Of a stretch of 38,212 nt of DNA, positions 18,726 through 37,957 are shown piece by piece. The DNA is from Thermoplasmata archaeon (GTDB lineage: Archaea > Thermoplasmatota > Thermoplasmata > Methanomassiliicoccales > Methanomethylophilaceae). The translations under genes and the position numbers were made by a program. The notes under the pieces are model-generated. The model saw only the letters and a program-made list of their open reading frames with translations, ran no database searches and was not told where the DNA came from. The DNA lies in assembly GCA_015063165.1 (NCBI GenBank), contig SUSZ01000021.1, positions 1 through 38,212 on the forward strand, in the 5' to 3' direction. How positions within the stretch are numbered: the first letter of the stretch is position 1; every line of letters starts with the position of its first letter.

Positions 18726-19556
18726 ATGAAAGGCCTCTTGATGTCCAAGTTCTATCTCGACGAGATATTGGACGGTAAGAAATCCTTCGATGCTCGCCTG
18801 TATCCGGCTCCTGTACGCGGAACGATAGCTATCGTGGACTCGGGTACATTTCGTGTCTACGGCCTCGCAGAGCTCGTCTCCGTGCGGGAGATAAGCTACG
18901 AGGAGTTCGTGGAGTGGCATAGGGTTGGACCGTTCAAGGACTCGCCCATAGCCCCGTACCACGAGGGGAAGGTCTGTTACGCGTACGACCTGGAGAACGC
19001 TAGAAGGCTGGTCCTCCCGGTCAGATTGGAAAGGGAGGAGACCGCGAGGATGTGGGTGGACATCCCCGACAGGGTCTCCAGATCGTTCGGTTCCCAGAAG
19101 ACCCTGTTCCGATCAGTCCGTTATTATCTCCACTCTGCTGCCGCCGTTCTTCTTCTTGGTGACGCAGATCTTCTTGGACAGGCGCTCCTTGAACAGGTCG
19201 ACGTGCGAGATCACTCCGACCATCACATCGCCTTCGGAGAGGCTTTCCAGGACTGTTATGGCCTGTTCCAGCGACTCGCTGTCCAGAGAGCCGAACCCCT
19301 CGTCTATGAACAGGGTCTCGACCCTCAGGCCTCCTGCGGTGTACTGGACCATGTCCGAGAGTCCCAGCGCCAGCGACAGGGCGGCCTTGAACGATTCTCC
19401 GCCAGAGAGGGTCTTCACGCTTCTCTGTATCCCGGTGTAGTTGTCCATGACGTCTATGTCCAGGGCGGTCTGGCTCCTTCTGTCGCCTTCCTTTTTGCGG
19501 ATGAGCTCGTATCTGCCGCCGGACATGTTCGTGAGCCTCTTGTTGGCCAGCAGTAG
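18726..19556 (+). CDS. ASCH-domain protein with an anomalous 3' extension
   Basis: The first ~125 residues resemble a small ASCH domain, a PUA-like RNA-binding fold: an N-terminal KGLLMSKFYLDEILDGKKSF, the strand GTIAIVDSGTFRVYGLAELV, then a terminal VLPVRL...ARMWVDI. ASCH proteins of this size usually end there, near 19100. Here the frame stays open for a further 444 bases antisense to the end of sbcC and closes with TAG at 19554-19556, giving 276 residues. The extension resembles no protein and reads like a sbcC shadow. Either the natural stop was lost or the gene truly overlaps. The role of the ASCH part is unknown. Confidence 0.5.
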   Translation: MKGLLMSKFYLDEILDGKKSFDARLYPAPVRGTIAIVDSGTFRVYGLAELVSVREISYEEFVEWHRVGPFKDSPIAPYHEGKVCYAYDLENARRLVLPVRLEREETARMWVDIPDRVSRSFGSQKTLFRSVRYYLHSAAAVLLLGDADLLGQALLEQVDVRDHSDHHIAFGEAFQDCYGLFQRLAVQRAEPLVYEQGLDPQASCGVLDHVRESQRQRQGGLERFSAREGLHASLYPGVVVHDVYVQGGLAPSVAFLFADELVSAAGHVREPLVGQQ

Positions 19557-22175
19557 GATGCTGTCGAAGAATACGGTCTGGATGTACTGGTCGAACGGGA
19601 CCTTCGCCTCTCCCTGTACCTTTCCGCTCGCGGCGTCGGCCAGAAGCCTGAGCTCTTCTGCTTCTCCTCTGAGCTTCTCCCACCGAGGAATCCTCTCCCT
19701 CATCTTCACCTCGACATCGGTGTTGTGACTCAGCCTGTTGGATAAGGCGGTCCTTTTCTCGACGGATTCGTCGACAGCGGCTTTGGCATCTACGACCTCT
19801 TTTCTGGCCGCTTCGGCGTCGGGCTTCTCCTTTCCGTCCACCCTGGTTCTGAGGTCCTCCAGCAGGGCGTTGTTGGTTCTGACAGCGCCATCGTATCTGT
19901 CGATCTCCGACTTCAGTGCTCCGCTGTCTATCAGCAGGATGCCGTCCAGGTCAGTCTCGCTGATTCCGACGGACGCCAGCATCGCGACGACCTCTTCGGA
20001 CTTCGCCTCGAAGGTCTCCTTCTCCCTCCTTACGTTGGCCTCCTCGGATTCGATCGAGCTCTTCAGCGAGGCTTCCCTGTTGGTCGCTTCCTTCATCCTA
20101 TTCTCCACCTCGTCGATGAGCGCAGAGAGCTTCTCGGAATTCTCCTTAGTGGCGGCGATGTCAGCATTTATCGAATCCTTCTCCGCCCCTTCGCATGCGT
20201 CGATGGCCGCTCTCAGCCTCTCCGCAAGGGTGGCCTCCTTCGCCTTCGCGTCGGAGATCCTCCCTCCCAGGGATTCCAGGGACTTCTTTAGCTCCTCTAG
20301 TCTGGCCGAGGCTTTGTTGTCCTGCGCCCTGGCATCTTCAAGTCTCTTCTTGTCGGCCATCCTGGATTCCAGCTCCGATTCCAGCTCGGATGCTTCTCCA
20401 TTAAGGCTCGCGAGACGATCCGCGATCATCGTTTCGATAGCCTCGATGGAATCGCCGTATCCGGACAGGCTCTCGATCATGCTGTCGCGCTCGCCGGCGA
20501 TCCTGGTCAGATTTCCGTTGACGTCATCCCTCTTCTTTCTGGCGATCTCCACTTGGGATTCCATGCCCTTTATGGACTCCTCGGTGGGCACGTCTTCGGG
20601 AACGGTGGCGGGCGAGGGATGATCCGTGGATCCGCACACGGGACAGGGGGCGCCTGGGATCAGGCTCTTGGCGATTATGCCGGCCTGCGACAGGAGGAAC
20701 CTGTGGCTCATGTCCGCTCTCCGGATGTCCAGGTTGGTGAACTCGGATGACTTTCTGGCGAGCTCCTCCTTGACGCTCTCGATCTCCGCGCATCTGGATT
20801 TGATGTTCTCGAGCGTTCTGCTGTCCTTCTCCAGGCCCCCTAGGTCTTTCCTGATGCCATCCAGGCGGACTTTGCAGACGTCCGCTTCCGCGGCGGATTT
20901 CGCGAGCGCTTCGAGGGTGCTGGCGATTTCCTTTCTGGATTCTTCCAGCTCTTTCTGTTCGGCCTGCTGGGTGTTGCTGGCGGATTCAAGCTCCTCCAGC
21001 TCTTTCCTGCAGCCGTCTAGGTCGGAGCGGATGTTAGTGGCGTTGCAGCAGGCCTCCAGCTTCTTGTTAAGATCGTCCAGGCGGGTTCCGAGGTTCTTCA
21101 GCTCCTCTCTGCGTCCCGGCAGGGCCTCGTATTCGGGCCTGAGCCCTTCGAGGGCCGCATCGTTGTCCTTTTTCCTCTGTTCGAAAGCTTCGAGCCTCTT
21201 GGAGGCTTCCTATGCGGCCATCCTATGGGATTCGCGGTCCCTACGGACTGCGTCGATCGCAACGGACCTGCTGGCGAGGTCGAGGTCGGTCCTCTTCCTC
21301 TCCATCTGCTCCTTCTGCTCCTGGAGGGACTTCCATTTCTCGCTCTCCTCGTCCAGCTTGGAGAAGTCCTTCGCCAGGGCCTCGGCCTCGCCGTCCTTCT
21401 GGAGGGCTATGGCGTACGCCTTCTCGAGCTCCACGTGGGATTCTTCAAGGCTCTTGAGCTCGGCCTCGTCCCTCCTGTTGTACGATTCCAGCTTGGCGGC
21501 CATCTCTTCGAACGTCATCGAAGAAACGTCGTCCTCGGGGTCCCAGAAAGCTGATCTGGCGATCCAGTTCAGGTCGTTCTCGCTGTTGCTGTACTCCTCG
21601 TCCTTGTCCTTGCTCCTGCGTTTGAGCTCTTCGATCAGGAAAGTGAACCTCCCGGTCTTGAACAGCCTGCCGAGTATCTCGGAGCGTTCGGCGCTGTTCG
21701 AGTCCAGAAGCTTGACGAACTCCCCCTGTGCGATCATCGATATCTGCCCCCACTGCTCGGGGCCGATGCCGAGGATATCCGTGATCGCTTTGGTCACATC
21801 CGTGTTCTTGGTGCAGAGGCATTCGTCGCCCATGTACAGCTCGGACGAAGCCGACTTCTTGGATACCGTGCCGTTGCGGGTCGTGTATGTGTACGAGGGC
21901 TCCCTGTAGACGCTGTAGCTGATGCCGTCGTGGACGAAATCGAGGAGAACGTAGGGCTTCTTGTCGGTGAAGTCGCTCTTCAGCGAATCAACGCCTCTTC
22001 TGCTGCCGGTGGTCTCCCCGTACAGGGCATACGACATCGCATCGAATATCATGGTCTTCCCGGACCCGGTCTCCCCGGTCACCAGGAACAGGCCATGGTC
22101 CATCTCCTCGAACTCTATGACGGTCTTCTCGTCGTAAGGGCCGAACGCCTGCATCTCCAGTCTGATGGGCTTCAT
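19113..22175 (-). CDS. sbcC: SbcC/Rad50-type ATPase with an in-frame TAG (codon 322)
   Basis: Large subunit of the SbcCD (Rad50-Mre11) nuclease complex, which processes DNA ends and hairpins. The frame from ATG 22175 to TGA 19113 is 1021 codons and unbroken except for TAG at 21212-21210. With TAG read as an amino acid the product has 1020 residues, the usual SbcC length. The N-terminal half-ATPase (FGPYDEKT, Walker A GETGSGKT) lies before the TAG. After it come coiled coil, the zinc-hook CPVCG (C511, C514), more coiled coil, the signature LSGGES and Walker B LFIDEGFGSLD. Neither part alone would be a working ATPase. The motifs are bacterial SbcC-like rather than archaeal Rad50-like. The start overlaps the sbcD stop (ATGA). 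UAG as pyrrolysine is the favoured reading; a pseudogene or sequencing error is the alternative. Confidence 0.88.
21193..21212 (-). promoter_or_regulatory. in-frame TAG and downstream stem-loop in sbcC
   Basis: On the minus strand TAG (21212-21210) is followed after two bases by the perfect stem AGCCTC/GAGGCT (six pairs, loop CAA, 21207-21193). A stem directly behind a recoded UAG recalls the proposed PYLIS elements of methylamine methyltransferase mRNAs, although PYLIS is not strictly required for pyrrolysine insertion. The stem could also be a chance result of coding sequence. Confidence 0.5.
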
Positions 22176-23335
22176 AGCCTCCCTCCTTCGCCGGAGATTA
22201 TGTCGTCGATGGTCTCCCTCTGGTATACGGTGAGGTCGCGTCCGGTGTACTTGCTGTAGAACTCTTCGAAGAGGGCCTGCGGGGTCTTGTTGTTAATGAC
22301 GTCTATGGTCATCTCTCCCGAGTCGCTCCTCTTGTTGGCGACCTCGAACTGGATGCTCACGATGCGGTCGAACAGGAGTCTGAGCTGTTTCTCCGGCTCG
22401 AACACGTGCTCTGTAAGGACCACTCCGACGTACATGTCCTTCAGCTCCGGCCTCTCGGCCATCTGTTCGCGTATGGACTCCATGGTCCCCTTCACCCTCG
22501 CGACGTCTCTGAGTGGGACTATAGGGATACTATCGATCTCCACATGGTTCTTCTCATAGATGCTCACTATAGTGACACTCTTGTCGTCGTTGACCTCGGA
22601 GAGGGAGTACTTCAGCGGAGTGCCACAGTACCTAACGGTCTCCCTGCCGACCTTCTGGGCAGTGTGTAAGTGCCCCAACGCAACGTAATCGAAAGGATCC
22701 AGAAGGCTCGCCGAGATGCAGTCCAGCCCGCCGACGCAGGCGTGGGACGTCTCGGATTCGCACTGTTTGGGGAGGACGTCCGAGTTCAGGTAGAACTGGT
22801 GCGACACCAGGAGGTTCCTCGCACAGGGGTCCACCTTCGTCCTGTCCAGTATCAGCCGCATGGCCTCGTCAGGGCTTTCGATCTCCTCGTCGAAGTAAGG
22901 CCTCACCAGCGAGGGCTTGATGTACGGAAGCATGTAGATGTTCAGGTCGCCGAACCCGTCGTGGACGACTATGCGGTCCATGTCCCCTTTGAACGCTCCG
23001 GCGATGTGTATGTTCCTTTTCTTGAGGATGGCATCGCCGAAATCCAGCCTCCTGCCGGAGTCGTGGTTCCCTCCTATCATGTAAACAGGACAGCCTCTGG
23101 ACTCGACCTCGGCCAGGAAGTAGCTGAACATGGTGACGGCATCCTCGCGCGGAACGCTCTTGTCGTAGACGTCTCCGGCGATTATGAGGCCATCAGGATG
23201 CACTTTATCGATTATCGACAGAATCTGTCCCAGCATATCCTCCTGTTCCTCTATCAGAGGGAAGCCACGGAGGCTTTTTCCTAGATGCAGATCAGAAATA
23301 TGAAGAAGCCGAGTTGGCTGTGCCGATTCTCCCAT
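22172..23335 (-). CDS. sbcD: SbcD/Mre11-type exonuclease subunit
   Basis: A 387-residue metallophosphoesterase nuclease subunit that pairs with SbcC. Phosphoesterase motifs are in order: HISDLHLGKSL (residues ~10-20), AGDVYDKSVP, GGNHDSGRRL, SHQFYL, and GLDCI...ALGHLHTAQ. These supply the two-metal (Mn) site. The motif context (LHLGK...EEQEDML) resembles SbcD of Firmicutes more than archaeal Mre11. Its TGA overlaps the sbcC ATG. A TATA box at 23354-23363 gives a leaderless start at 23335. The promoter region is shared with a divergent HTH gene and contains inverted repeats. Confidence 0.92.
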   Translation of the reverse strand: MGESAQPTRLLHISDLHLGKSLRGFPLIEEQEDMLGQILSIIDKVHPDGLIIAGDVYDKSVPREDAVTMFSYFLAEVESRGCPVYMIGGNHDSGRRLDFGDAILKKRNIHIAGAFKGDMDRIVVHDGFGDLNIYMLPYIKPSLVRPYFDEEIESPDEAMRLILDRTKVDPCARNLLVSHQFYLNSDVLPKQCESETSHACVGGLDCISASLLDPFDYVALGHLHTAQKVGRETVRYCGTPLKYSLSEVNDDKSVTIVSIYEKNHVEIDSIPIVPLRDVARVKGTMESIREQMAERPELKDMYVGVVLTEHVFEPEKQLRLLFDRIVSIQFEVANKRSDSGEMTIDVINNKTPQALFEEFYSKYTGRDLTVYQRETIDDIISGEGGRL

Positions 23336-23446: not shown

Positions 23447-24001
23447 ATGGAATCCGGCCAAAGCCTGTTGGACACCCTGAAGAGGGCGTCCTCCATCTCC
23501 TACGTTTCATCGAAGCTAGGAGTCTCCAGGCCCACGCTCTACAGGTACGTGGATCTCTACGAATCCGGAGACAAGGAAAAAGTTCCTGAGGTTGCGAGGG
23601 AGTTCTTCATCTATTGCTGCAAGGACAATCTCAGCGAGGACGACGTCTCCAGGTATTTCCTTGTAAACAGGAGCGAGGATGCGAGCTGGGGCGAGGAGTC
23701 TGGAGGGAGCGCCTGCCTGATCGGCGGCGACCGCGTGATGATTATCGTCCGCAATCCCAAGAAGGACCGTGCCGTAGAGATTTCGACCGAGATATCTGGT
23801 GAGACTATAGTGATAGGTACTTACCATCTATCAGACGAGAAGAACTTCGTCACGATCGACGATCTCGTCCCAGGACATTCGTTCAAGTACAGGTTGGTAG
23901 GAACCGATGGGAAGAGGTCCAAGTGGGAGTCCTTCACGGTTGAATTTCACGTATCGGGCCCAGGTAGGAGAAATCGAGGCGATCTTCGCCGAACGCTTTG
24001 A
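23447..24001 (+). CDS. helix-turn-helix protein, divergent from sbcDC
   Basis: A 184-residue protein with an N-terminal HTH (about residues 10-40: RASSISYVSSKLGVSRPTLY, then RYVDLYE), of the kind found in transposon-related and Fis/resolvase-like regulators. A mixed alpha/beta region of no recognised family follows. The start has no Shine-Dalgarno; a TATA element 26 bp upstream implies a leaderless mRNA. The last 68 bases run antisense to the end of the helicase gene. Autoregulation and control of sbcDC are plausible from the operator-like repeats but not shown. Confidence 0.65.
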   Translation: MESGQSLLDTLKRASSISYVSSKLGVSRPTLYRYVDLYESGDKEKVPEVAREFFIYCCKDNLSEDDVSRYFLVNRSEDASWGEESGGSACLIGGDRVMIIVRNPKKDRAVEISTEISGETIVIGTYHLSDEKNFVTIDDLVPGHSFKYRLVGTDGKRSKWESFTVEFHVSGPGRRNRGDLRRTL

Positions 24002-26084
24002 CCAGGAGGTCCTCCGGGACGTACCTGTCGTATTTTCCGAATACCAGCCTGTCGTCGCCGATGAGGTCGTAGGCGAACCTCTGGCTCGAATAGCGCTCTA
24101 TGGTCTCCTGCAGCTCTCCCCAGTCCAGCTCCGTGAGGACGTCCACGTAGTAGGGCGGCCTTTCCAGGACCTTGTCGCATATCTGCCTCAGGACCCTGCA
24201 TAGGGTGTCGAATGCGGTGGTCCCGACCCAGGGGAATATCCTGAACCAGCCGTTTATCTCGACCACGCCTTCCAGCATGCCGCATTCCCTGGCGGCCTGT
24301 CTGCATCTGCGGAGCTCGTCGTGGGCGGATGCATCTAGGAAACTATAGTCTTCTTCGGATTCCAGGACCTCCCTCATGCGCTCCATGACCTTGTTGTGGG
24401 TTCCAGGGACCCCGGATTTCCAGAGGGTGTTGGCGGACCCCTCGGTCTCCTCCACGTCGATGCTCATGGCCTTGGGATCGGTCTTCACGACGGTCCAGAT
24501 CCTTCCTGCCAGCTGTATGAGCTCCCCTATGTCCGGCATCTCCTGGATGGAGCCGACCTGCTTGCCCTCGCTCTTGACCTCTATCTCCTTCTTCACGGTG
24601 AACACCGAGCAGAACGACCTGTCCGAGGACACCCTTTCGCCGTTATCCGTCAGCAGTAGCGTCCCATCCTCCATCTTCATCAGGAGACCGGAGGAGATCA
24701 TGTCCTTGACCAGAATGGCGTAGTCCTCCTTGGGGATGAAGCGGAACGGGTGCATGGACAGCACGTCGGATACCAGGCGGGAGAAGCGGGTCCCTGTCCC
24801 GCATCTGATGTACTCCATCGTCTGGTGGAACAGCAGCCCATACGGGAGTTTCGGGATCCTCACAGGCTCGGTCCATCCGTCGCGGAGGACCAGCGTCGAC
24901 ATCGCTATGCCCTTGATCAGGTCTATCGAGACCCCTTCTATGGAGGCCCACCATTCGGTCAGGTCCTCGCGGCAGAACATCCTCATGGTCTGAGCCCCTC
25001 CGCGCCTTCCTGAGCGTCCCATCCTCTGCACGAGGCTGGAGCAGGTGTACGGGGTGTCCACCTGGACCACGGCATCCAAGGAGCCGACGTCTATCCCCAG
25101 CTCAAGGGTGACCGTGGAGACTGTCACCGTCTTCCTGTTCCTGTCCTTCAGGTTGTCCTCCGCGGCCTTCCTCAGGTCCTTGGATATGCTTCCGTGATGT
25201 ACGTACACCACATCCTCGTCCTTCATCGCTTTGGCGATCTTCGACAGGGAGCGTCCGGTCCTCTCGGCTATGACCCTGCTGTTGGTGAAAACTATGCAGC
25301 TCTTGCCGCGGACCTCCTCGTAGAGGCGGCGGTAGTACCTGTTGGCGGCGACGACCCTCTCCTGATGGGTCTCGAAGCTGTCCATGGGGAAGCGATAGAA
25401 CAGGATTCCCAGGTCCCTCTCGCCGATCCCGGGGTCGGAGACAACCTCCGTCCTCCTTCCGGTGCCCGCGGAGAGCCATTCCGCCGCGGATTGGGTGTCC
25501 GCTATGGTCGCTGACAGGCCTATGCGCCTGGGCTCGCATCCGGCCAGCATCTCCAGCCTCTCCAGGCAGCAGAGGAGCTGCAACCCTCTGTCCGAGCCCA
25601 TGAAGGCGTGGACCTCGTCGATTATAACGAATCTCAGGTCCCCGAACAGCCTCTCCAGGTCCTCAGGGCGGGAGGCCACGATGTTCTGTAGGGACTCGGG
25701 GGTGATCTGGAGTATCCCGGAGGGCACGTCCAGCAGCTTCTTCTTGGACTCCGGGCCGATGTCCCCGTGCCATCCGGTGACCTCGATGTACGAGTCCTTC
25801 AGCATGGGCTCCAGCCTCTGGAACTGGTCGTCGATCAGGGCCTTCAGAGGCCCCACGTAAAGTGCCCCGATGCTCCTGGGAGGGTTGCTGTAGATGGATG
25901 AGACCGCCGGGAAGAGGGCGGCCTCGGTCTTCCCGCTGGAGGTCCCGGAGGATATCAGGAGATGGCTGTCCCTTCCGAAGAGGACATCGAACGCGCGCTC
26001 CTGGATGCCCCTGAAGCCTTCCCATCTGTTCTCATGGATGTACTCTCTGAGGAACCAGGGGAGGCTGTTGAACCTGTCCGTCAT
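23934..26084 (-). CDS. brxHI: BrxHI-like / Lhr-like superfamily II DEAD/DEAH helicase
   Basis: A 716-residue SF2 helicase. Motif I is SGTSSGKTEA (about residues 46-55), followed by the box IIDEVHAFM, motif III LSATIAD, the DNA-binding and strand motifs of domain 2 (TVTLELGIDVGSLDAVVQVD) and motif VI QRMGRSGRRGG. The C-terminal ~300 residues form an Lhr-like accessory region. It resembles the helicase BrxHI of type 2 BREX. Its ATG overlaps the TGA of the BrxD-like gene (ATGA), and it is the last of four same-strand genes. The start at 26084 is preferred because frame upstream is only a shadow of the ATPase gene. Expected role: ATP-driven remodelling of DNA, in a complex or pathway with BrxD. 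Confidence 0.85.
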   Translation of the reverse strand: MTDRFNSLPWFLREYIHENRWEGFRGIQERAFDVLFGRDSHLLISSGTSSGKTEAALFPAVSSIYSNPPRSIGALYVGPLKALIDDQFQRLEPMLKDSYIEVTGWHGDIGPESKKKLLDVPSGILQITPESLQNIVASRPEDLERLFGDLRFVIIDEVHAFMGSDRGLQLLCCLERLEMLAGCEPRRIGLSATIADTQSAAEWLSAGTGRRTEVVSDPGIGERDLGILFYRFPMDSFETHQERVVAANRYYRRLYEEVRGKSCIVFTNSRVIAERTGRSLSKIAKAMKDEDVVYVHHGSISKDLRKAAEDNLKDRNRKTVTVSTVTLELGIDVGSLDAVVQVDTPYTCSSLVQRMGRSGRRGGAQTMRMFCREDLTEWWASIEGVSIDLIKGIAMSTLVLRDGWTEPVRIPKLPYGLLFHQTMEYIRCGTGTRFSRLVSDVLSMHPFRFIPKEDYAILVKDMISSGLLMKMEDGTLLLTDNGERVSSDRSFCSVFTVKKEIEVKSEGKQVGSIQEMPDIGELIQLAGRIWTVVKTDPKAMSIDVEETEGSANTLWKSGVPGTHNKVMERMREVLESEEDYSFLDASAHDELRRCRQAARECGMLEGVVEINGWFRIFPWVGTTAFDTLCRVLRQICDKVLERPPYYVDVLTELDWGELQETIERYSSQRFAYDLIGDDRLVFGKYDRYVPEDLLVKAFGEDRLDFSYLGPIREIQP

Positions 26085-27364
26085 ATCTCGAGGTCCTCGA
26101 TGAGGTCGTCGTCGGGGTTCCTGTCGGCATCCACCGTCCTTCCGATGACGAGGTCCTCGAAGGTGGCGTCGGGGTTCTGATGTAGGGTGTCCAGCAGGCT
26201 GATCAGGTCCCTGGTGATCTCCCTGGGCGTGACCATCGACGAGGAGACGGACGAGAGCACGGTTCCGAGATATATCTGGAGCTTCTCGTCGTCCATGCCG
26301 GAGGTGTAGCCGTACCTCTGCTCGTGGAGGTCCCTTATGGTCCTCAGGAGGACGTAGATCTCCTCCTTGGTGAGGGGCCTGAGGTTGATGACCGGGCCGA
26401 GGTAGTTGTCGTACCCGTTCTCGTATTTGCCCTGGATGAGCCTGGATTTGAGGGCTTCGTAGCTGAAGAGCCCGCGGTTGGGGTCCTCGATGAACTCGGG
26501 GGTGCCGCAGACGTACATCGAAAGGTATGACGACTTGCCCTGCATGATGTCGTTGAACATCGTGAGCAGGCGCTCGTAGTTGTTGGACCTGGAAGCCCTG
26601 TTCTGCAGCTTGTACAGCACCACGGCCTCGTCCAGGAACACCACGAGTCCCTTGTACCCGAGGCCGACCACGAACTCCGCCCAGATCTTGATGAATCCGT
26701 ACCAGTTGGAGTCGTTGATCACGGAGTCGATGCCCAGCTTGGACCTGACGTCCCTCTTGAGTTCCATCTCTCCGCGGAGCCATCTGAGCGCGGGGATGTC
26801 CTCCACGCCGTCGCGGGAGTCCCTGTAGTAGCTCATGACGACCTTCAGGAAGTCGTTGTAGTACGGAAGGGTGCTGAGCCCGGAGACGGATTTCTTGAGC
26901 CTGGCCTCTATCTCTGCGTCGTTCGGATCCCTTCCGAGCTCCTTCCTGGCGGCTTCCTCGGCCGAGTCTATCCACTCCTGGAGGAGGGGCTCCAGCGCTC
27001 CGTTGTCCGGACGGGTGCGTATGGACATGTTCTTGACCAGCTCGACGTAGGTGTTCAGGCCTTCTTTCCTGGATCCCGTGAGCCTGCGGTCTATGGAGAG
27101 ATCGGCATCCATCACGACGAACCCCTTGTCCATCGCGTAGTTGCGGATCATCTGGATCATGAAGCTCTTACCGTTACCGAAGCGTCCCGAGATGAATCTG
27201 AAAGCGCCGCCTCCTGCAGCGGTGTCGTCGAGGTCGCGTACGAAGGTCTCCGTCTCCTTCCTCCTTCCTACCGCTATGTATTCCAGTCCACGGCGTGGCA
27301 CCACGCCGGATGACAGTGCGTTCATCATCGTGATGAGGGTCCTCTTCGGTACGTTGGATGTCAT
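26081..27364 (-). CDS. brxD: BrxD-like P-loop ATPase (DUF2791 family)
   Basis: A 427-residue ATPase of the BrxC/BrxD (DUF2791) family. The N-terminal signature ALSSGVVPRRGLEYIAVGR is typical, Walker A is GRFGNGKS (60-67), and the Walker B region is GLVVFLDEAVVLYK. Family members are ORC/AAA-like and work with BrxHI in type 2 BREX and in related gene sets. A GGAGGAG ribosome site lies directly before the ATG, 26 bases after the second TerB gene, and the stop overlaps the helicase start. Because BREX methylase, PglZ and BrxL are absent nearby, BREX activity itself should not be assumed. Confidence 0.87.
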   Translation of the reverse strand: MTSNVPKRTLITMMNALSSGVVPRRGLEYIAVGRRKETETFVRDLDDTAAGGGAFRFISGRFGNGKSFMIQMIRNYAMDKGFVVMDADLSIDRRLTGSRKEGLNTYVELVKNMSIRTRPDNGALEPLLQEWIDSAEEAARKELGRDPNDAEIEARLKKSVSGLSTLPYYNDFLKVVMSYYRDSRDGVEDIPALRWLRGEMELKRDVRSKLGIDSVINDSNWYGFIKIWAEFVVGLGYKGLVVFLDEAVVLYKLQNRASRSNNYERLLTMFNDIMQGKSSYLSMYVCGTPEFIEDPNRGLFSYEALKSRLIQGKYENGYDNYLGPVINLRPLTKEEIYVLLRTIRDLHEQRYGYTSGMDDEKLQIYLGTVLSSVSSSMVTPREITRDLISLLDTLHQNPDATFEDLVIGRTVDADRNPDDDLIEDLEI

Positions 27365-27390
27365 CTCTCCTCCATTGCTCCTTTCATATT

Positions 27391-29538
27391 TTATTCGTTT
27401 TCCAAGTAGTTTTTCGTGATCCTTTCGATCTGCTCGGAGTAATCCTCCACAGCCTGACCGTCCTCGACGACTATGTCGCCCACCGTGTCCATGGCGGCCT
27501 CGTTCACGGCCTTCTCCTTCCTCCTGTCGGCGCGGGTCCCCTTCAGGGATCCATGCAGGTATCCCAAGAGCTCCCGGTCCAGCCTGGAGGCGAGCTCCTC
27601 CCAGGGGTTGTCGTGACGGGTCTTCTCCTGCACGGGCTCTTCGATCGTCGGCGTCGGCTCCTCGTCGGCTCCGGAGTACATCAGGCCGGTGACAGCATCC
27701 AGGTCCTCGACGGCCGAGTTGACGGCGTCCATGTCCAGCTTCACGTCCTTCGACATGGACCTGATCCTCGCGACCCTCTTCTTCTCCATGGTCTTCAGGG
27801 AGACCTCGCGGACGATGTCGCGGTTCCTGGTGCCGAACCCGAACGGGCAGCGAGGGCTCTCTTCTCCGTTCTGGACCGAGCAGACTATGGTGCCGACGTT
27901 CACCAGGAACTTGGTGACGCTCCCTAGGTCAGAGAAGGTGTCCATCTGCATCGATATGGGCATGCAGGCGCATTCCTCGAAGATCCTGACGTTCGATGTG
28001 GACAGCGAGGCGTTGAACATCTCCGCCAGGGTGTTGTTGTGATAGCGGTACAGCATCGCTACGGAGGCGTTCACGAGGTCCATGTCGGCGTCCCCCACGC
28101 TCTGGTCCAGGCGTTTCAGCATGCCGTCGTTCAGGCATCCGGGCGGGTCGGATGCCAGCGCGCGGACCAGGAACGCTCCCAGGCGTATGCTGTCGCAGAA
28201 GAGCTCGGACATGTCCGCATCGATGCCCTTCAGGAGGCACCAGTCCGCCATCACAGACTCGACCCTGACGCGGACCTGTCCCATGGAAGCCTTCCTGCAG
28301 GCTCTAAGAGCCTCCAGAGCAGATTCCGGGTCCAGGGTATCGTCGTGGATGATCTCGTTGACCAGGAGCCACATGGCCCCCTCCGAGACCTCAGGCCTCT
28401 CCCCTTTCAGGACGGATTCCTTCCACGACTGGTAGTACGCGAACTCGTCGAGGGTCATCTTCGAGTAGCACGGGCGAGGTTTGTCCATGCGCACCGATGC
28501 TGGGGCGAACGGCATGTAGATGCCCCCGTAGTCCCTCATCCTCGTCCTGAAGCGGTAGCTCGGCCAGGTCCCATCCTTGGTGTTGTTCAGGATCATCTCC
28601 TCGTACGTTACGGCCAGATGGTTCATGACGGCGATGGGCGACTCCAGCTTCGCATAGGGGGTGGTGATCTCATCGAGCCTGCCCTCCTTCCACGCGGTGA
28701 TGCATTTCTCCAGCGTCCCCTGGTATTTCCTGAGGTTCGCCGGAAGGTTCTCATCCCTTCCCGCCAGCCTGAGGATGCAGGTCTTCTGGAGGTTCTTCAC
28801 CAGCTCGACGAATGGCTCCGACCTCTTCAGATCCCGGCATCTCAGGTTGAGCGGAGCTATCAGCCTGTCGAACATAGCATCCCTGAAAGGCATCTCGATC
28901 AGGACGTCCATCGGGCGGCTGCAGAGCTCCAGGATGCCCCTCCCGACGTACATCCTGCCTATCTCGTGGAGGGCCGCGCTCACTATGACGGCGGCGGGCT
29001 CGGCGTATCTGTCGATTGTCTTGCCCTTGAATCCTGTTATGAGCCTGACATCCCTCGCTGAGAGGGGAACGAACCTGTCGGATGACAGGGCCCTGCACAT
29101 CCTGACCATCCTGTAGGACCTGTCCAGGCTCTCGGTGTCCCTTATCTCGAGGCCGTGCATGGCCTCGAAGTAGCAGCAGGCCTGGTCCAGCATGGCGTCC
29201 ACGCTCTCGTTCTGCCCCCTGTACGCGTCGCGCATCCTCAGAAGGCATTCGTGGTTCTCTATCGGGTCGTCGTCTACCACCAGCAGCTCGATCATGTGAA
29301 GCCAGATGTATCCGGCGTCGGTGTCGAGGCACACGCCCTCGTACAGGCTGCGCCTCCAGTAGAAGAAGTAGCGGAGGCGTTTCCAGACGATGTCCTTATG
29401 CCACGGGTGGAGCAGGCGGCTGGCCATGTACTCGCATTCCTCGCCGTCGAACGTCCAGTACGCTCTGATGCTATCGACGGATGTCGTCGTGGCGCGGTCC
29501 CTCCTGAAGCCCTCGTCGGGGAGTATCCTTCCGGTCAT
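27391..29538 (-). CDS. TerB-N/TerB-C domain protein, second copy
   Basis: A 715-residue protein. The N-terminal TerB-N region (about residues 40-130) has the motif YFFYWRRSLYEG followed by LDTDAGYIWLHMIELL, the aromatic-WR plus acidic-GYIWL pattern of TerB-N. The C-terminal ~120 residues are TerB-C-like and end with the signature AAMDTVGDIVVEDG near 682-695. The middle is helical and unassigned. TerB-related domains occur in Ter stress-response systems and in predicted DNA-processing operons with helicases. The ATG overlaps the TGA of the first TerB gene. It is paralogous to that gene at both ends. The stop is TAA. No signal peptide or membrane helix is seen. Confidence 0.75.
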   Translation of the reverse strand: MTGRILPDEGFRRDRATTTSVDSIRAYWTFDGEECEYMASRLLHPWHKDIVWKRLRYFFYWRRSLYEGVCLDTDAGYIWLHMIELLVVDDDPIENHECLLRMRDAYRGQNESVDAMLDQACCYFEAMHGLEIRDTESLDRSYRMVRMCRALSSDRFVPLSARDVRLITGFKGKTIDRYAEPAAVIVSAALHEIGRMYVGRGILELCSRPMDVLIEMPFRDAMFDRLIAPLNLRCRDLKRSEPFVELVKNLQKTCILRLAGRDENLPANLRKYQGTLEKCITAWKEGRLDEITTPYAKLESPIAVMNHLAVTYEEMILNNTKDGTWPSYRFRTRMRDYGGIYMPFAPASVRMDKPRPCYSKMTLDEFAYYQSWKESVLKGERPEVSEGAMWLLVNEIIHDDTLDPESALEALRACRKASMGQVRVRVESVMADWCLLKGIDADMSELFCDSIRLGAFLVRALASDPPGCLNDGMLKRLDQSVGDADMDLVNASVAMLYRYHNNTLAEMFNASLSTSNVRIFEECACMPISMQMDTFSDLGSVTKFLVNVGTIVCSVQNGEESPRCPFGFGTRNRDIVREVSLKTMEKKRVARIRSMSKDVKLDMDAVNSAVEDLDAVTGLMYSGADEEPTPTIEEPVQEKTRHDNPWEELASRLDRELLGYLHGSLKGTRADRRKEKAVNEAAMDTVGDIVVEDGQAVEDYSEQIERITKNYLENE

Positions 29539-31619
29539 TCCGGACCCCCTACGGCTCTCCGGACGTCCTCCATGTAGTCCTCGATGACCACTCCGTCCTG
29601 GACCACCACGTCCCCGACGGTGTCCATCGCCAGGGAGTTGATCGCCTTCTCGGCCTTGAAGTCGGACCGGCAGCCCTCGCAGGCTCTGGAGAGGTATTCC
29701 TTCTGGTCGTCGTCCAGCCCTTCGGAGAACGCCACCCAGGGATCCATGGGAGCCTCTGCGACCTCCTCTTCCTCTTCGGCCGTCTCCTCCTCTTCCTCCA
29801 CCTGCATCATGCTGGTGACGTCCTTGAGGTCGGATTCGGCCTGGTTGATGGCGTCCTTGTTGAGATTGACTTTCATCGGGCCCTTGTCCCACGACTTCCT
29901 GTCGGCGACGCTTCCCGTCAGCAGGAACTCCACGAGCTTCTCCTCGCGGATGCCGAAGACCTCTATCCCGACTCTCGGTAGGCCGGACGAGATCCTCCTG
30001 GACTCCTCCACGATGTATGTGGCCAGCTCGGAGAACGTCGACCTCATGTCGGGGTCTCCGGCGAAGTCCGTGAACTGTATCTTGGCCACGAGGTCCTCGC
30101 GGTCCGAGCGGTAGTACGCCAGGCCCTCGTACAGCTTCCTCGTGTGGATCGATTTCTTACAGAGAGCTACCGCGTCCTTCTTCTTGGCCCTTAGGAGCTC
30201 GGAGCTGGCGTTCATCAGGGTCCTGCGCATGGCTTCGGCCATCGTCGGGTCGAAGAAGTCGTCGGTGCTGGTCCCGAGAAGCCCTGCTATGCGCAGAAGC
30301 ACGTCCTTGTCCGGCTTGGCGTCCATGCATCCGCTCAGGTACTGGCCCATGACCATCCCTGCCTCGTCGTCGCTGTTCGCCAGGGAGGAGTCGGGGATGT
30401 GGATCTTGTTCTTCAGGACGAAGTCCATGCAGGTCTTCCTGATCAGGGCGGAGGCTATGCTGTCGCTATACGCGCGATGCATAGACATCAAGCGCTTGAG
30501 GATCGTCGTATGGTCCTCGGTGGAGTTCACCAGCCCGCACAGGCGCATCCAGATGTATCCGGTGTCGGTGTCGTGAAGCTTCCCGGCGTCGGCTTCGGAG
30601 GACCATCTCGCATAGAATGCCTTTTGCTTGTCGGAGAGCTTCCTGTAGTCCGGGCAGCTGCTGTCCGATCCGATGAAGTCGCCCAAGGGGCCTTCGGGGC
30701 CGCGTACGACGACGCTGTCCGTCCCTCTCCTGCCGGTTGGGGGCTCTTCTCCGAACAGATCGGTGCCCATGTCCATCAGGTCGACATCCCTCTTCGACAC
30801 AGGGACGCGGATGGAGCCGTTCTTGGTTCTCTTCACGACACTGCGTCTCTCGACGTTCTCATCCATCCTCTCGCGGAAGGACCTGGAAGGGGCGCCTTCG
30901 CCTGTGATGTGGGAGCAGATGTCCTCCAGAAGATGGAACAGATCGTCGGAGTACACGTCGTAGGTGACCATGTACATGGAAGACTCGAACCTGACATGAT
31001 TGGGGAACAGCACCCTTATGGACGTCTCGGTCCCGAGGAGGTATTCGTCCGTTCCTACGGATTCCAGGAGCCTCACGAACTCGCTCAGGCCATCGGGGGT
31101 ACCGGACAGACTGTCGGCCTTCCCGTCGCCTATGAGGGCTCTCAGGCGGCTCCTGTCGATGCATGAAGGGTCCCACAGGGTCTCCGATATCAGGATGCCC
31201 CTGGCGACATCGTCCTTTCCGTAGTCCGCAGGAGGGACCCGCAGGCCGTTCGCGATGCAGACGTCGGCGGCGACCCTGTCCAGATGCTCAGGGAACACGT
31301 CTATATCCTCCGCGTGGTCCTTCAGCATGGCGATTTCGCGAAGAGCCTCCTCCGGCTCGGACATGTTGATGATCTCGCACAGGCGGAGCCACACGTAGCC
31401 CCTGTCGGACTGCAGAAGCCTCCCCTCGGCCAGGTTCTTCCTCCACCAGAGGTAGTAGTTGAGCTGTGGCTTCTCAAGAAGGGAATAGTCCGGAGTCAGC
31501 AGGTCGCAGGGCACGAAAGCGCATTCGATCCCGGGGTAGCTCTGGTACCACCTCATCATGGATTCGAACTCGTCGCTGGGGTCGCATCTTCTGTAGCGCT
31601 TGCGCGGTGATTCCGCCAT
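29535..31619 (-). CDS. TerB-N/TerB-C domain protein, first gene of the operon
   Basis: A 694-residue protein (710 if ATG 31667 is used). Two TerB-N-like units are visible: YYLWWRKNLAEG then SDRGYVWLRLCEIIN (about residues 50-86), and FYARWSSEADAGKLHDTDTG then YIWMRLCGLVN (about 335-365). An acidic linker (about 605-624) leads to a TerB-C end with AMDTVGDVVVQDG, nearly the same as in its neighbour. ATG 31619 is preferred because a TATA-like CATATC sits 26 bp upstream; 31667 remains possible. It follows htpG on the same strand, beyond that gene's terminator, so it probably begins the four-gene operon. Confidence 0.75.
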   Translation of the reverse strand: MAESPRKRYRRCDPSDEFESMMRWYQSYPGIECAFVPCDLLTPDYSLLEKPQLNYYLWWRKNLAEGRLLQSDRGYVWLRLCEIINMSEPEEALREIAMLKDHAEDIDVFPEHLDRVAADVCIANGLRVPPADYGKDDVARGILISETLWDPSCIDRSRLRALIGDGKADSLSGTPDGLSEFVRLLESVGTDEYLLGTETSIRVLFPNHVRFESSMYMVTYDVYSDDLFHLLEDICSHITGEGAPSRSFRERMDENVERRSVVKRTKNGSIRVPVSKRDVDLMDMGTDLFGEEPPTGRRGTDSVVVRGPEGPLGDFIGSDSSCPDYRKLSDKQKAFYARWSSEADAGKLHDTDTGYIWMRLCGLVNSTEDHTTILKRLMSMHRAYSDSIASALIRKTCMDFVLKNKIHIPDSSLANSDDEAGMVMGQYLSGCMDAKPDKDVLLRIAGLLGTSTDDFFDPTMAEAMRRTLMNASSELLRAKKKDAVALCKKSIHTRKLYEGLAYYRSDREDLVAKIQFTDFAGDPDMRSTFSELATYIVEESRRISSGLPRVGIEVFGIREEKLVEFLLTGSVADRKSWDKGPMKVNLNKDAINQAESDLKDVTSMMQVEEEEETAEEEEEVAEAPMDPWVAFSEGLDDDQKEYLSRACEGCRSDFKAEKAINSLAMDTVGDVVVQDGVVIEDYMEDVRRAVGGPE

Positions 31620-31689
31620 CCCCAGGGTATGCACGTTCTGACGGATATGTGTTCCCACTGGCGGCATGTCGGCGTTCTGATAATGGAAA

Positions 31690-31712
31690 GGGCCGGGGGA
31701 GACCCGGCCAGA
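31690..31712 (-). terminator. terminator after htpG
   Basis: On the minus strand GGCCGGG (31709-31703) pairs with CCCGGCC (31697-31691) around TCTCC, followed by a short CTTTCC tract, directly behind the htpG stop. It separates htpG from the TerB operon. Confidence 0.5.
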
Positions 31713-31716
31713 TGTT

Positions 31717-33624
31717 TCAGAAAAGCTTGAAGACCATGTCGGAGTAGTCCATGATGTCGTCCACGGGCATTCCGGCGATGAGCAGGGCCTGGGTGTACAT
31801 GATCTTCGCCATGTTCGCGGCCTTGTCCTTGTCCTCGGCGTAGGCCTTCTTCAGGGCCTCGTAGGCGGGGTGGGACCCGTTGATCTCCAGCACGCGCTGG
31901 GCCTTCACCTGGTTCATCTCGGAGGCTCCGGGGATGCTCGAGAAGTACTTCTCCATCTCGAGGGAGACGTCTCCTTCGGTGCTCAGGCAGACCGCGTGGG
32001 TCTTGAGCTTGCGGGACAGCTTCACCGCGGACACCTTGTCGCCGATCGTCTCCTTCACGAAGTCGAGGATCTCCTTCTCCTCCTCTTCCTTGGCGTCGGC
32101 CTCCTTCTTCTCCTCTTCGGTCTCGAGCCCGAGGTCGTTGCCTGCTATGTCGCAGAACTCCTTCTCTTCGTACTCCCTGAGGGTGCGGATGGCGAACTCG
32201 TCGACGTCCTCGGTCATGCACAGGATGTCGTATCCCTTGTCCCTGACCTGCTCGGTCTGGGGGAGCTGCTTGGCGCGGGCGACGCTCTCGGCGGAGGCGT
32301 AGTAGATCTTGGCCTGGCCTTCGGGCATGCCCTCGACGTACTCCTTGAGGGTGATGAGCCTGTCCTGGGCCATGGAGTGGAAGAGGACGAGGTCCTTGAC
32401 GAGGTCGGCTTTGGCTCCGTATCCTTCGACGATGCCGTATTTCACCTGGGTTCCGAAGCTCTTGTAGAACTCGAGGTATCTGTCGCGCTCGTCGGAGAGC
32501 AGGCGTTCGAGCTCGTTCTTGATCTTCTTCTCTATGTTGTTCTTGATTTTGTTGAGCTGGCGGTCGTGCTGGAGCATCTCCCTGGAGATGTTCAGGGAGA
32601 GGTCGGGGGAGTCCACGACTCCCCTGACGAACCTGAAGCAGTCGGGCAGGACGTCCTTGCACTTGTCCATGATCATGACTCCGGAGGAGTAGAGCTGGAG
32701 TCCGGGCTCGAAGTCGCGGCTGTAGAAGTTGTAGGGCGCTACTTTCGGGATGAAGAGCATGGCCTTGTAGCTCACGGTGCCCTCGGCGTTGACTCTGATG
32801 ACGGAGATGGGGTCCTCGAAGTCGTGGAACTTCTCCTTGTAGAACTTCTTGCAGTCCTCGTCGGAGGCGTCCTCCTTGGAGCGCTGCCAGATCGGCACCA
32901 TGCTGTTGACGACGGTGTCCTCGAGGTGGGTCTTCCACTCCTTCTTTGGGTTGCCCTCTTCGTCCTTCTCTCCGGTCTCCTCCATGGCGCCCTTCTCGAG
33001 CATCATGTGGATAGGCCATCTGACATAGTCGGAGTACTTCTTGATAAGCTCCTTGATCCTGTACTCGTCAATGAAGTCGCTGTAGTTCTCGCCGTCCTCG
33101 TCGGGCTTGATGTGCATCTCGACCTCGGTTCCGTAGTCGGGCTTGTCGCACTCCTTGACGGTGTATCCGTCGGTGCCCTCGCTGGTCCACTCCCAGGCGG
33201 TGTCCTCTCCGTAGGCTTTGGACCTTACGGTGACCTTGTCGGATACGAGGAAGGCGGAATAGAATCCGACACCGAACTGTCCGATGATATCCACGTCGGG
33301 GTTCTCCTCCATGGCCTTCTTGAAGTCCAGGGAGCCGCTGTGGGCGATGACTCCGAGGTTGGAGTCCATGTCCTCCTTGTTCATTCCGATACCGTTGTCG
33401 GAGACGGTGATGGTGCGGGCGTCCTCGTCCCAGGAGACGTTGATTTTGAAGTCCTCTCTGGCCACCGGGAGGCTCTCGGTTATCGCCTTGTAGTGGAGCT
33501 TGTCGATGGCATCCGATGCGTTGGATATGATCTCCCTCAGGAAAATCTCCTTGTGGGTGTAGATCGAGTTGATCATAAGGTTGAGGAGTTGCTTCGACTC
33601 TGTTTTGAATTGTTTCTTAGCCAT
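31717..33624 (-). CDS. htpG: molecular chaperone HtpG (Hsp90 family)
   Basis: A 635-residue, full-length bacterial-type Hsp90. GHKL ATPase motifs are present: EIISNASDAIDKL, the VSDNGIGM box and GQFGVGFYSAF. The middle domain includes FEPGLQLYSSGVMIMDKC and LSLNISREMLQ, and the C-terminal dimerisation domain is complete. It helps fold and activate client proteins in the cytosol. Hsp90 is missing from most archaea, so lateral acquisition from bacteria is likely. ATG 33624 follows the ribosome site AAGAAGGT with good spacing and a TATA element at 33672-33687. It stands alone, with its own promoter and terminator. Confidence 0.95.
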   Translation of the reverse strand: MAKKQFKTESKQLLNLMINSIYTHKEIFLREIISNASDAIDKLHYKAITESLPVAREDFKINVSWDEDARTITVSDNGIGMNKEDMDSNLGVIAHSGSLDFKKAMEENPDVDIIGQFGVGFYSAFLVSDKVTVRSKAYGEDTAWEWTSEGTDGYTVKECDKPDYGTEVEMHIKPDEDGENYSDFIDEYRIKELIKKYSDYVRWPIHMMLEKGAMEETGEKDEEGNPKKEWKTHLEDTVVNSMVPIWQRSKEDASDEDCKKFYKEKFHDFEDPISVIRVNAEGTVSYKAMLFIPKVAPYNFYSRDFEPGLQLYSSGVMIMDKCKDVLPDCFRFVRGVVDSPDLSLNISREMLQHDRQLNKIKNNIEKKIKNELERLLSDERDRYLEFYKSFGTQVKYGIVEGYGAKADLVKDLVLFHSMAQDRLITLKEYVEGMPEGQAKIYYASAESVARAKQLPQTEQVRDKGYDILCMTEDVDEFAIRTLREYEEKEFCDIAGNDLGLETEEEKKEADAKEEEEKEILDFVKETIGDKVSAVKLSRKLKTHAVCLSTEGDVSLEMEKYFSSIPGASEMNQVKAQRVLEINGSHPAYEALKKAYAEDKDKAANMAKIMYTQALLIAGMPVDDIMDYSDMVFKLF

Positions 33625-35710: not shown

Positions 35711-36751
35711 TCAGGACTTGTAGTCGTAGAACCATAGTCCGCTGTACTTGACGGGCATGAACTTGTCGTAGAACGTCTTGAGGTCTCCCTCGTAGTCGAA
35801 GCTCATCTTGTCGGGGAACAGGCTGGAGGACACGTACTCGAAGGCAGCGAAGTCCCAGACGTCGCGGGACAGGACGAATCCGACGGAGTACACTTCGCCG
35901 CTCTTGTAGGCGCCGAGCTGGTTGTATCCCTTCCTGTTGTCGAACACGGACTGTATGACGCGCTGTGCCTCCGATTCGGACCCTTCGAACCCGAGCTTGA
36001 GGAAGTCGGCGTCGCTGGCCCACTTCGTACCGAGGAACAGGATCGCATCGGGGTCGGAAGCGAGGATGGTGATGTCGTCGAGGGTGTTGTTTCCGTTGGG
36101 GCTGATGCTGTTCCCTCCGCAGAGGTAGACGATCTTTCCCTGTTCGGTGTCGTTGCCTCTGGACGTTCCGTTCTTGCTCCATCCGTACTGGATAGGCTCG
36201 ATGTAGACGTCCTTCCTGGTGATCTCGCCGCTGCTGAGCAGGGACTGCACCTTGGAGGTCACAGCGCCGACCTTCTCGGCGTAGTAGTCCGCGATCTCCT
36301 CGGCGCGGGCCTCCTTTCCGAAGAGCTTTCCGAGGTTGGTTATGGACTGCCTGGCCTTCTCGATGTCCTCGTCGATGTAGCTGATGTAGATCGTGGGGAT
36401 CCCGACCTTGGCGAGGTCGGCGTCCACGTTGTTCGCCTGAACGGTGGACTTGTGGTGTATGGAGGTGATGAACGCCTGGGGCTGGAGGGTTATTATCTTC
36501 TTGGTGTCCCAGTCGGAGCCGATCCCTCCCACCTGGGGGAGGTCCTTGAATCCGGGGACCTCGTTGCAGAACGCGCTGTAGATGTCGTCGCGGAACTTGT
36601 ACAGCGAGTTGTCGATGCCCACGAGGTAGTCGGGGAGGTCGCTTCCGAGCAGAGCGGCGAGGGTGGTGAACGGCCCTCCGGATCCGCTGTATCCGAGAAC
36701 AACCTTGTCGAGGGGCTCGTCGAAGGTGTATGTCTTTCCATCGGCGTCAAT
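35711..36751. repeat. direct repeat, second copy of the duplicated binding-protein domain
   Basis: Partner of the 36782-37822 repeat. The two lie in frame with no stop between, joined by a ~10-residue linker. Boundaries are approximate. Confidence 0.75.
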
Positions 36752-37957
36752 GATCTTTATCTCGGAGGAGACAGGCTCGGAGTTGTCGGAGTAGTTGAAG
36801 AACCACAGTCCGTTATACTTGACAGGCATGAACCTGTCGAAGAAGCTCTTCATCTCCTGGTTCGCGTCGAATTTGCAGACGTCCGGATTGAGGCAGGTGG
36901 CTATGTAGCTGAAGGACGAGAAGTCCCAGACCTCGCGGGAGATGGTCATCGCGAGCGAGTAGACCTCCCCGTTCTTGTAGGCGCTAAGGCCGTCGTATCC
37001 GGGCCTGTCGGTGAAGACGGTGTCGATGACGCGCTTCGCTTCAGACTCGGTGCCGTTGAATCCGAGGTTGAGGTAGTCGTTGCCGTTCTTCCAGTCGGAT
37101 CCGAGGAAGAATATGACCTCGGGGTCGGCGGCCAGAACGGCCGTGTCGTTCAAGGCCTGGCTGTCTACAGGGCAGATGCTCTTGCCTCCGCACATGTAGA
37201 TGACCTTGCCCTGCAGGTAGTTGTCTCCGCATGACTTGCCGTACTGCGAGGCTCCGAACTGCAAGGGCTCGTTGTAGACGGTCTTCCTGGTTATCTTCCC
37301 GTCCTCGATGAGCTTGGAGACGCTGCTGACGACGGAGTTGACCCTGTCGGCGTAGTAGTCGGCGACCTCTTTGGCGCGGGCCTCCTTTCCGAAGAGCTTT
37401 CCGAGCATGTTGATGGACGATGTCGCCTTGTCGACATCCTCGTCCACGTAGTTGATGTAGATCGTGGGGATTCCGACCTTGGCGAGGTCGGCGTCCACGT
37501 TGTTCGCCTGGACGGTGGACTTGTGATGGATGGAGGTTATGAGCGCCTGGGGCTTGAGGGTGATCACGTATTTAGTGTCCCAGTCGGCTCCGATCCCTCC
37601 CACCTGGGGCAGGTCCTTGAATCCGGGGACCTGGTTGCAGAATGCGTTGTAGATGTCGGTGCGGTATTTGTAGATCGAGTTGTCCACGCCTACGAGATGG
37701 TTGGGAAGGTCGTTCCCGAAGATGGCCGCCATGGTCATCAGAGGGCCGCCTGAGGTGCTGTATCCGCAGACCACCTTGTCGAGGGGTTTGTCGAAGGTGT
37801 ACGTCTTCCCGTCGGCGTCGGTGATGGAGAAGCTTGTGGATGGGACGGGTTCGTCCTTCTTATCATCGCTTCCGCCGTTCATTAATAGTATGGCTGCAGC
37901 AGCCACCGCGATTACGATGGCTATCGCAGCTACTATTGCGATAACTTTGGTGTTCAA
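35711..37957 (-). CDS. tandemly duplicated periplasmic-type substrate-binding protein
   Basis: A 748-residue lipoprotein-like or membrane-anchored binding protein. A hydrophobic N-terminal segment (about residues 4-27) is followed by an acidic linker and two complete Fe/B12-type binding domains (about 42-395 and 400-748). The copies are offset by exactly 357 codons (1071 bp), with long identical stretches such as IHHKSTVQANNVDADLAKVG. Each copy starts DADGKTYTF and ends in FMPVKY.GLWF. The start is TTG 37957, the only one that keeps the whole membrane segment; GTGAT five bases upstream may be the ribosome site. It heads the importer operon. Fused double binding domains are uncommon and may give two binding sites per transporter. 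Confidence 0.9.
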   Translation of the reverse strand: MNTKVIAIVAAIAIVIAVAAAAILLMNGGSDDKKDEPVPSTSFSITDADGKTYTFDKPLDKVVCGYSTSGGPLMTMAAIFGNDLPNHLVGVDNSIYKYRTDIYNAFCNQVPGFKDLPQVGGIGADWDTKYVITLKPQALITSIHHKSTVQANNVDADLAKVGIPTIYINYVDEDVDKATSSINMLGKLFGKEARAKEVADYYADRVNSVVSSVSKLIEDGKITRKTVYNEPLQFGASQYGKSCGDNYLQGKVIYMCGGKSICPVDSQALNDTAVLAADPEVIFFLGSDWKNGNDYLNLGFNGTESEAKRVIDTVFTDRPGYDGLSAYKNGEVYSLAMTISREVWDFSSFSYIATCLNPDVCKFDANQEMKSFFDRFMPVKYNGLWFFNYSDNSEPVSSEIKIIDADGKTYTFDEPLDKVVLGYSGSGGPFTTLAALLGSDLPDYLVGIDNSLYKFRDDIYSAFCNEVPGFKDLPQVGGIGSDWDTKKIITLQPQAFITSIHHKSTVQANNVDADLAKVGIPTIYISYIDEDIEKARQSITNLGKLFGKEARAEEIADYYAEKVGAVTSKVQSLLSSGEITRKDVYIEPIQYGWSKNGTSRGNDTEQGKIVYLCGGNSISPNGNNTLDDITILASDPDAILFLGTKWASDADFLKLGFEGSESEAQRVIQSVFDNRKGYNQLGAYKSGEVYSVGFVLSRDVWDFAAFEYVSSSLFPDKMSFDYEGDLKTFYDKFMPVKYSGLWFYDYKS
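36782..37822. repeat. direct repeat, first copy of the duplicated binding-protein domain
   Basis: DNA encoding the first binding domain repeats the segment at about 35711-36751 with a constant offset of 1071 bp. I checked the offset at two points (36404/37475 and 36725/37796). Parts are nearly identical at the base level. Boundaries are approximate. Confidence 0.75.

Follow-up and report, generated by a model that had tools for sequence, protein, structure and literature searches.

A probable Shango operon with two SngA subunits in a Thermoplasmata archaeon

Our analysis points to the four-gene operon at positions 23934-31667 of the window (the whole stretch of DNA analysed here, 38,212 nt of contig SUSZ01000021.1 from a Thermoplasmata archaeon) as an archaeal Shango system with two SngA subunits, and we consider this reading, antiviral role included, to be quite probable. 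An earlier note on this DNA had described four same-strand genes forming a candidate defence or DNA-processing operon. The four genes are indeed present, on the minus strand, and the description fits a Shango gene set, reported to protect Pseudomonas aeruginosa against phage (PMC10250203). Shango as such is known from bacteria; the new points are the two-SngA archaeal form, the presence of the system across a genus and a detached SngA'-SngB' pair. A search of titles and abstracts, with subscription journals mostly outside its coverage, returned no paper on two-SngA Shango and none on genus-wide Shango in Methanomethylophilaceae.

Gene content of the operon and its surroundings

The first two genes encode SngA-like proteins: sngA1 (29535..31667, minus strand; 710 aa from the ATG at 31667, or 694 aa from a second ATG at 31619) and sngA2 (27391..29538, minus strand; 715 aa), an ORF that matches the SngA profile and has the same architecture. 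They are followed by sngB (26081..27364, minus strand), which encodes a 427-aa BrxD-like AAA+ ATPase recognised by the PADLOC SngB profile, PF10923 and its motifs, and by sngC (23934..26084, minus strand), which encodes a 716-aa SF2 helicase of the Lhr/BrxHI type recognised by the PADLOC SngC profile and its motifs. Three junctions with overlaps of about four bases had been claimed; two are present, a 4-nt overlap (ATGA, read from the sequence) between sngA1 and sngA2 and a 4-nt overlap between sngB and sngC, while the sngA2/sngB junction is a 26-nt gap containing a GGAGGAG-like stretch. Long antisense ORFs occur throughout the window, which is GC-rich.

All three Shango profiles were matched in order and contiguously on one strand, with PADLOC E-values of 4.7e-24 (sngA1) and 5.1e-21 (sngA2) for SngA, 6.5e-144 for SngB and 3.1e-198 for SngC. 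The two window SngA score low, at 84 and 74 bits versus 342-360 bits for bacterial SngA. Their naming as TerB-N/TerB-C proteins holds for the first domain, Pfam TerB_N matching sngA1 in two stretches above the cut-off (1.5e-8) and sngA2 just below it (7.7e-5, 23 bits, cut-off 25), and does not hold at the cut-off for TerB_C (0.018 in sngA1 and 0.066 in sngA2, both under it). The motor genes are clearer: BrxC_BrxD (PF10923) matches the sngB product at 3.2e-132 and DEAD and Helicase_C match the sngC product strongly, which, together with the BrxD and BrxHI profiles, agrees with the DUF2791/BrxD-like ATPase and Lhr/BrxHI-like helicase proposed before. Motor motifs are intact in both proteins, with Walker A (GRFGNGKS, residue 60) and Walker B (FLDEA, residue 243) in SngB, and GTSSGKT (47), DEVH (156), SAT (191) and QRMGRSGR (353) in SngC. 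SngC also resembles PDB entries 5v9x and 7lhl, both entered as ATP-dependent DNA helicase, which we take to be Lhr. A nuclease domain was seen in none of the four proteins.

Because the Shango profiles outscore the BREX profiles and PglZ is missing, we assign the operon to Shango and not to a set of BREX parts: the sngB product scores 478 bits with SngB versus 154 bits with BrxD, and the sngC product 659 bits with SngC versus 400 bits with BrxHI. Bacterial Shango comparators from Paenibacillus and Sulfitobacter gave the same pattern of SngB and SngC above their BREX counterparts.

The neighbours sbcCD and hsp90 had been named correctly, as a Pfam scan of flanking ORFs showed. The Hsp90/HtpG gene (31717..33624, minus strand; PF00183, 6.6e-110) is a conserved upstream neighbour, separated from sngA1 by a terminator-like hairpin (31691..31709, minus strand; from a scan, a consensus match only) found as two overlapping sites versus 0.4 in shuffles, which suggests that hsp90 is a separate transcript. 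Considered as an operon part, Hsp90 was ruled out by this hairpin and by the gap between Hsp90 and SngA, which in relatives often holds other ORFs. SbcCD was likewise ruled out, by distance (sbcD, 22172..23335, minus strand, begins about 600 nt beyond sngC) and by an adjacency limited in lineage to three of the fetched relatives (G083, G090 and G092). The sbcC-like gene (19113..22175, minus strand), noted here as context, is a frame of 1020 codons with a single in-frame TAG at 21210-21212 (minus strand), a codon absent in frame from its orthologues in G092, G090 and G083; since the genome has PylS and tRNA-Pyl, the TAG may code for pyrrolysine here, in which case the gene could be intact. The other neighbours are of a housekeeping kind: PolD large subunit, GGR, a radical SAM protein, Sua5, an M24 peptidase and an ABC transporter. 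A defence island was considered and rejected, as no second system was recognised when ten neighbours were compared with PADLOC; the matches were shared-domain ones of ATPase, SMC and phosphoesterase type, the best being mad3 (5.1e-28, 97 bits) for an ABC transporter ATPase. Separately, two plus-strand tRNA-Ala (GGC) genes are predicted (36379-36451 and 37450-37522), both antisense within a predicted periplasmic-binding-protein ORF (35711-37957), which is probably annotated too long or is two genes merged.

SngA modules, divergence and doubling

Each window SngA consists of two similar TerB_N-like modules in tandem followed by a TerB_C-like C-terminus. In local alignments of module against module, six of six pairs exceeded all 200 shuffles; the similarity of the sngA1 modules has a Z of 21.5, and that between the C-terminal ends of SngA1 and SngA2 a Z of 26. 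AlphaFold models (AF2 pLDDT 85 for SngA1, from an alignment of the two window proteins with 50 of the 58 eligible proteins from the loci, and 75 for SngA2) likewise contain two alpha-plus-hairpin modules each, followed by a small helical C-terminal domain that includes a short hairpin. A fold search with both models gave no PDB match at E <= 0.001, and a PDB sequence search gave none for SngA1 or SngB; the best VIA-align result, a 75-residue match to a spliceosome protein (Z 5.8), is uninformative by the tool's own note, with good coverage limited to stretches 369-402 and 449-582.

PF05099, the TerB core, is listed as a SngA domain for Shango (PMC10952713), and a Pfam search with E-values as high as 1 did not find it in either SngA of the window. 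Among five bacterial SngA scanned, each with one TerB_N stretch, it was present in two, so it seems unnecessary for a match to the SngA profile. The archaeal SngA of locus L121 also has two TerB_N stretches, and SngA length ranges from about 434 aa in the g12 genomes to about 750 aa in most of the genus.

Comparison of the window genome (G000) with its relative G092 shows that all four genes are under purifying selection and that SngA diverges much faster than the SngB-SngC motor. The dN/dS values are 0.299/0.79 for sngA1 and 0.414/0.926 for sngA2 (ratios of about 0.38 and 0.45), against 0.115/0.681 for SngB and 0.084/0.682 for SngC (ratios of 0.17 and 0.12); protein identities are 60.1% for SngA1, 51.7% for SngA2, 82.4% for SngB and 86.9% for SngC.

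Of the 36 core-type loci whose SngA ORF was usable, 6 carry a second sngA: besides the window, the same order of two sngA, sngB and sngC occurs in G092, G089, G096, G037 and G041, as expected if these four genes belong together. No two-SngA locus occurs among the 63 bacterial loci having at least one SngA match (six further loci in the bacterial set of the named collection had no such match). On a Mesorhizobium huakuii plasmid (L117), an IS256 transposase separates two TerB_N genes ahead of sngB, and this could be either a second two-SngA case or a single interrupted gene. In a tree of the last 420 residues of SngA (excluding rows shorter than 350 aa, G101_A1, the C34-type proteins described below, G034 and G040), the doubled genes are spread over separate branches, with moderate support and several long branches, and sngA2 groups with the lone SngA of G083, G090, G091 and G093. 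Because the pairs are on separate branches, sngA doubling seems to have happened repeatedly, that is, more than once.

The genome of the window has, on contig C34 (L081:9035-11642), a detached SngA'-SngB' pair made up of a SngB paralogue and a protein of SngA C-terminal type; sngC had no match there. SngB' is 43% identical to SngB and keeps an intact Walker A, with DQ in place of the Walker B DE in all five copies (G000, G083, G090, G091 and G092), while every other SngB complete enough for the motif has DE. SngA' (365-451 aa) lies ahead of SngB', and its likeness to SngA is confined to the C-terminal region; as the only part of SngA kept beside SngB', this region is a candidate for the SngB contact. 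The N-terminal part of SngA' had no Pfam match and, judged by eye, resembles extracellular beta-repeats. In this genome the pair adjoins tRNA-Pyl, PylS and methylamine methyltransferase genes (the latter named by eye).

Distribution, inheritance and alternative readings

SngB is present in all 31 species genomes of the genus, and in 30 of them it is of the core type (G084 has a bacterial-type copy only). Strong SngC matches (398 bits or more) were found in 30 of the 31; the contig of G088 ends within sngC, and G084 and G093 have SngC matches of the bacterial type. The survey took one genome per species, so that presence here means presence across species and not fixation within them. Beyond the genus, SngB occurs in 42 of 147 genomes of the order and, in a sample of the phylum, in 17 of 389 genomes and 2 of 155 genera. 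The named loci are from Candidatus Methanomethylophilaceae and similar Thermoplasmata MAGs, mostly of the ruminant gut; Shango has also been reported from rumen MAGs (PMC13356809) and as enriched in Asgard archaea (PMC11291487). Defence systems are usually gained and lost, and it is unusual to meet one in all the sampled species of an archaeal genus; this suggests that these ruminant-gut methanogens either are under constant viral attack or use the system for a second function in the cell.

Inheritance is not purely vertical. Trees of SngB (without G100, which is split over contigs, and short pieces) and of SngC (without rows under 500 aa, namely G088, G084, G046 and G079) recover rpoB clades A and B and disagree elsewhere; in the SngC tree G074 is placed with the g12 genome G114, and G076, G095-G100 and G102 with g12. 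Such conflicts with rpoB, and the occurrence of bacterial-type loci, leave a purely vertical history across the genus not fully supported. Core archaeal SngB, including the C34-type paralogues, forms one group against 67 mainly bacterial rows, with a support of 99 in a quick tree with long branches. Bacterial-type Shango was seen in the archaeal family at L069 (G034), L071 (G040), L050 (G084) and L085 (G093), and the SngB of the first three genomes nests among gut bacterial sequences, which suggests an independent transfer at a later date. As to genomic site, Hsp90 is adjacent or near in 17 loci (the window counted), and the window and clade A genomes have the same downstream GGR gene; because these flanks are common, much of the genus appears to keep the operon at one site. 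G074, G076, G097 and G099 have a common site of their own, different from the Hsp90/GGR site. A link between C34-type and g12 loci in the clustering of flanks was discarded, having come from an ABC exporter pair on opposite sides.

A defence system would not usually be present genus-wide or have housekeeping flanks, and a cellular role is possible: the operon could descend from Shango and have been domesticated as a genome-maintenance machine (processing forks or breaks, possibly with SbcCD) that is no longer mainly antiviral. In the same 31 genomes in which SngB is universal and a strong SngC match nearly so, the rpoB domain was found in only 25, the misses being incomplete drafts, and Cas1 (11/31) and HsdR_N (10/31) are patchy; the operon lies beside PolD large subunit, GGR and Sua5, commonly with Hsp90 upstream and GGR downstream, and sbcCD adjoins it in the window clade. 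Even so, we regard domestication as unlikely, as a maintenance protein would not be expected to evolve as fast as SngA or to be duplicated time and again, as at least two genomic sites and the tree conflicts indicate relocation or exchange, and as sbcCD adjoins the operon in few relatives only.

Far less probable is a reduced BREX system of type 2 (Pgl) or a BREX remnant, close to the distinct minimal system of BREX parts that the earlier note had favoured. The BrxD (2.1e-45) and BrxHI (6.5e-120) profiles do match, but the Shango profiles score far higher and PglZ was found in none of the 31 genus genomes, the window's own genome among them, and these two results rule out a BREX remnant for the window. 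The absence of Pgl and Brx partners had been foreseen correctly, PglX, PglW/Y and BrxL being unrecognised among the window proteins scanned. To our knowledge, TerB proteins are no part of BREX. PMC12839542 reports BREX type 2 from 1309 taxa, archaea not among them. Resistance to tellurite or stress as the function of the operon, which the TerB name and the TerB_N and TerB_C domains might suggest, is hardly credible, given that the scan of window proteins revealed no gene of terC/terD type, that PF05099 was undetected in both window SngA and that the same three-gene set is antiphage in bacteria (PMC10250203).

A possible mechanism and the relation to known systems

If the operon is a Shango system, its parts suggest how it might work, in a system whose mechanism a 2026 review gives as unknown (PMC12926258). 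SngB, an ORC/Cdc6-type AAA+ ATPase similar to BrxD, would most likely load or clamp SngC onto DNA, much as BrxD has been proposed to load BrxHI (PMC12839542), and SngC, placed with BrxHI, DruE and DpdJ in one helicase clade (PMC12278908), would be the Lhr/Ski2-like helicase of the motor. The conserved TerB_C-like end of SngA may dock on SngB, its variable TerB_N modules perhaps sensing a feature of invading or replicating foreign DNA, and the assembled helicase would then block or unwind the invader. As the four proteins have no nuclease domain, killing might come from replication stalling or a host nuclease. Docking and sensing are guesses, since nothing among the solved structures matched the SngA models. 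A motor served by two SngA could have a wider or a combined recognition. Taken by itself, this mechanism of a loader-helicase motor with SngA recognition is tentative, and we would not give it even chances.

SngA is the candidate recognition part because the motor stays nearly constant whereas this TerB subunit is variable, divergent and at times doubled, a contrast that amounts to a natural experiment pointing the same way. A review of Ter domains reportedly proposed links of TerB with DNA processing. We can go one step further, to a picture that is slightly more doubtful again, in which Shango would be a modular immune machine with a conserved motor and interchangeable SngA docking through TerB_C, a near-fixed core immunity in the genus, with sngA doubling giving two specificities and SngA'-SngB' acting as a regulator or decoy.

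Among known systems, BREX type 2 shares a related ATPase (BrxD) and helicase (BrxHI), a linked pair there also (PMC12839542), while the window operon differs in its TerB proteins, its lower BREX profile scores, and the lack of PglZ in the genus and of recognised PglX, PglW/Y and BrxL among the window proteins scanned. Hachiman (HamAB) likewise has an SF2 helicase in a compact antiphage operon, where it is described as the DNA sensor, but that helicase belongs to a different group (PMC12278908), and Hachiman has the HamA nuclease effector, unlike the window operon, in which no nuclease was recognised. The closest likeness is to bacterial Shango (P. aeruginosa PA14, E. coli and the Paenibacillus cellulositrophicus plasmid locus L116), which has the same order of TerB protein, ATPase and helicase on one strand, with genes overlapping or nearly touching and with matching profiles, Walker motifs and helicase motifs. 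Compared with these bacterial systems, the window operon has two SngA genes instead of one and two TerB_N-like modules in each (four per operon, versus one stretch in each of the five bacterial SngA), its SngA are without detectable PF05099 (present in two of those five), and it is chromosomal in an archaeon and found across the whole sampled genus.
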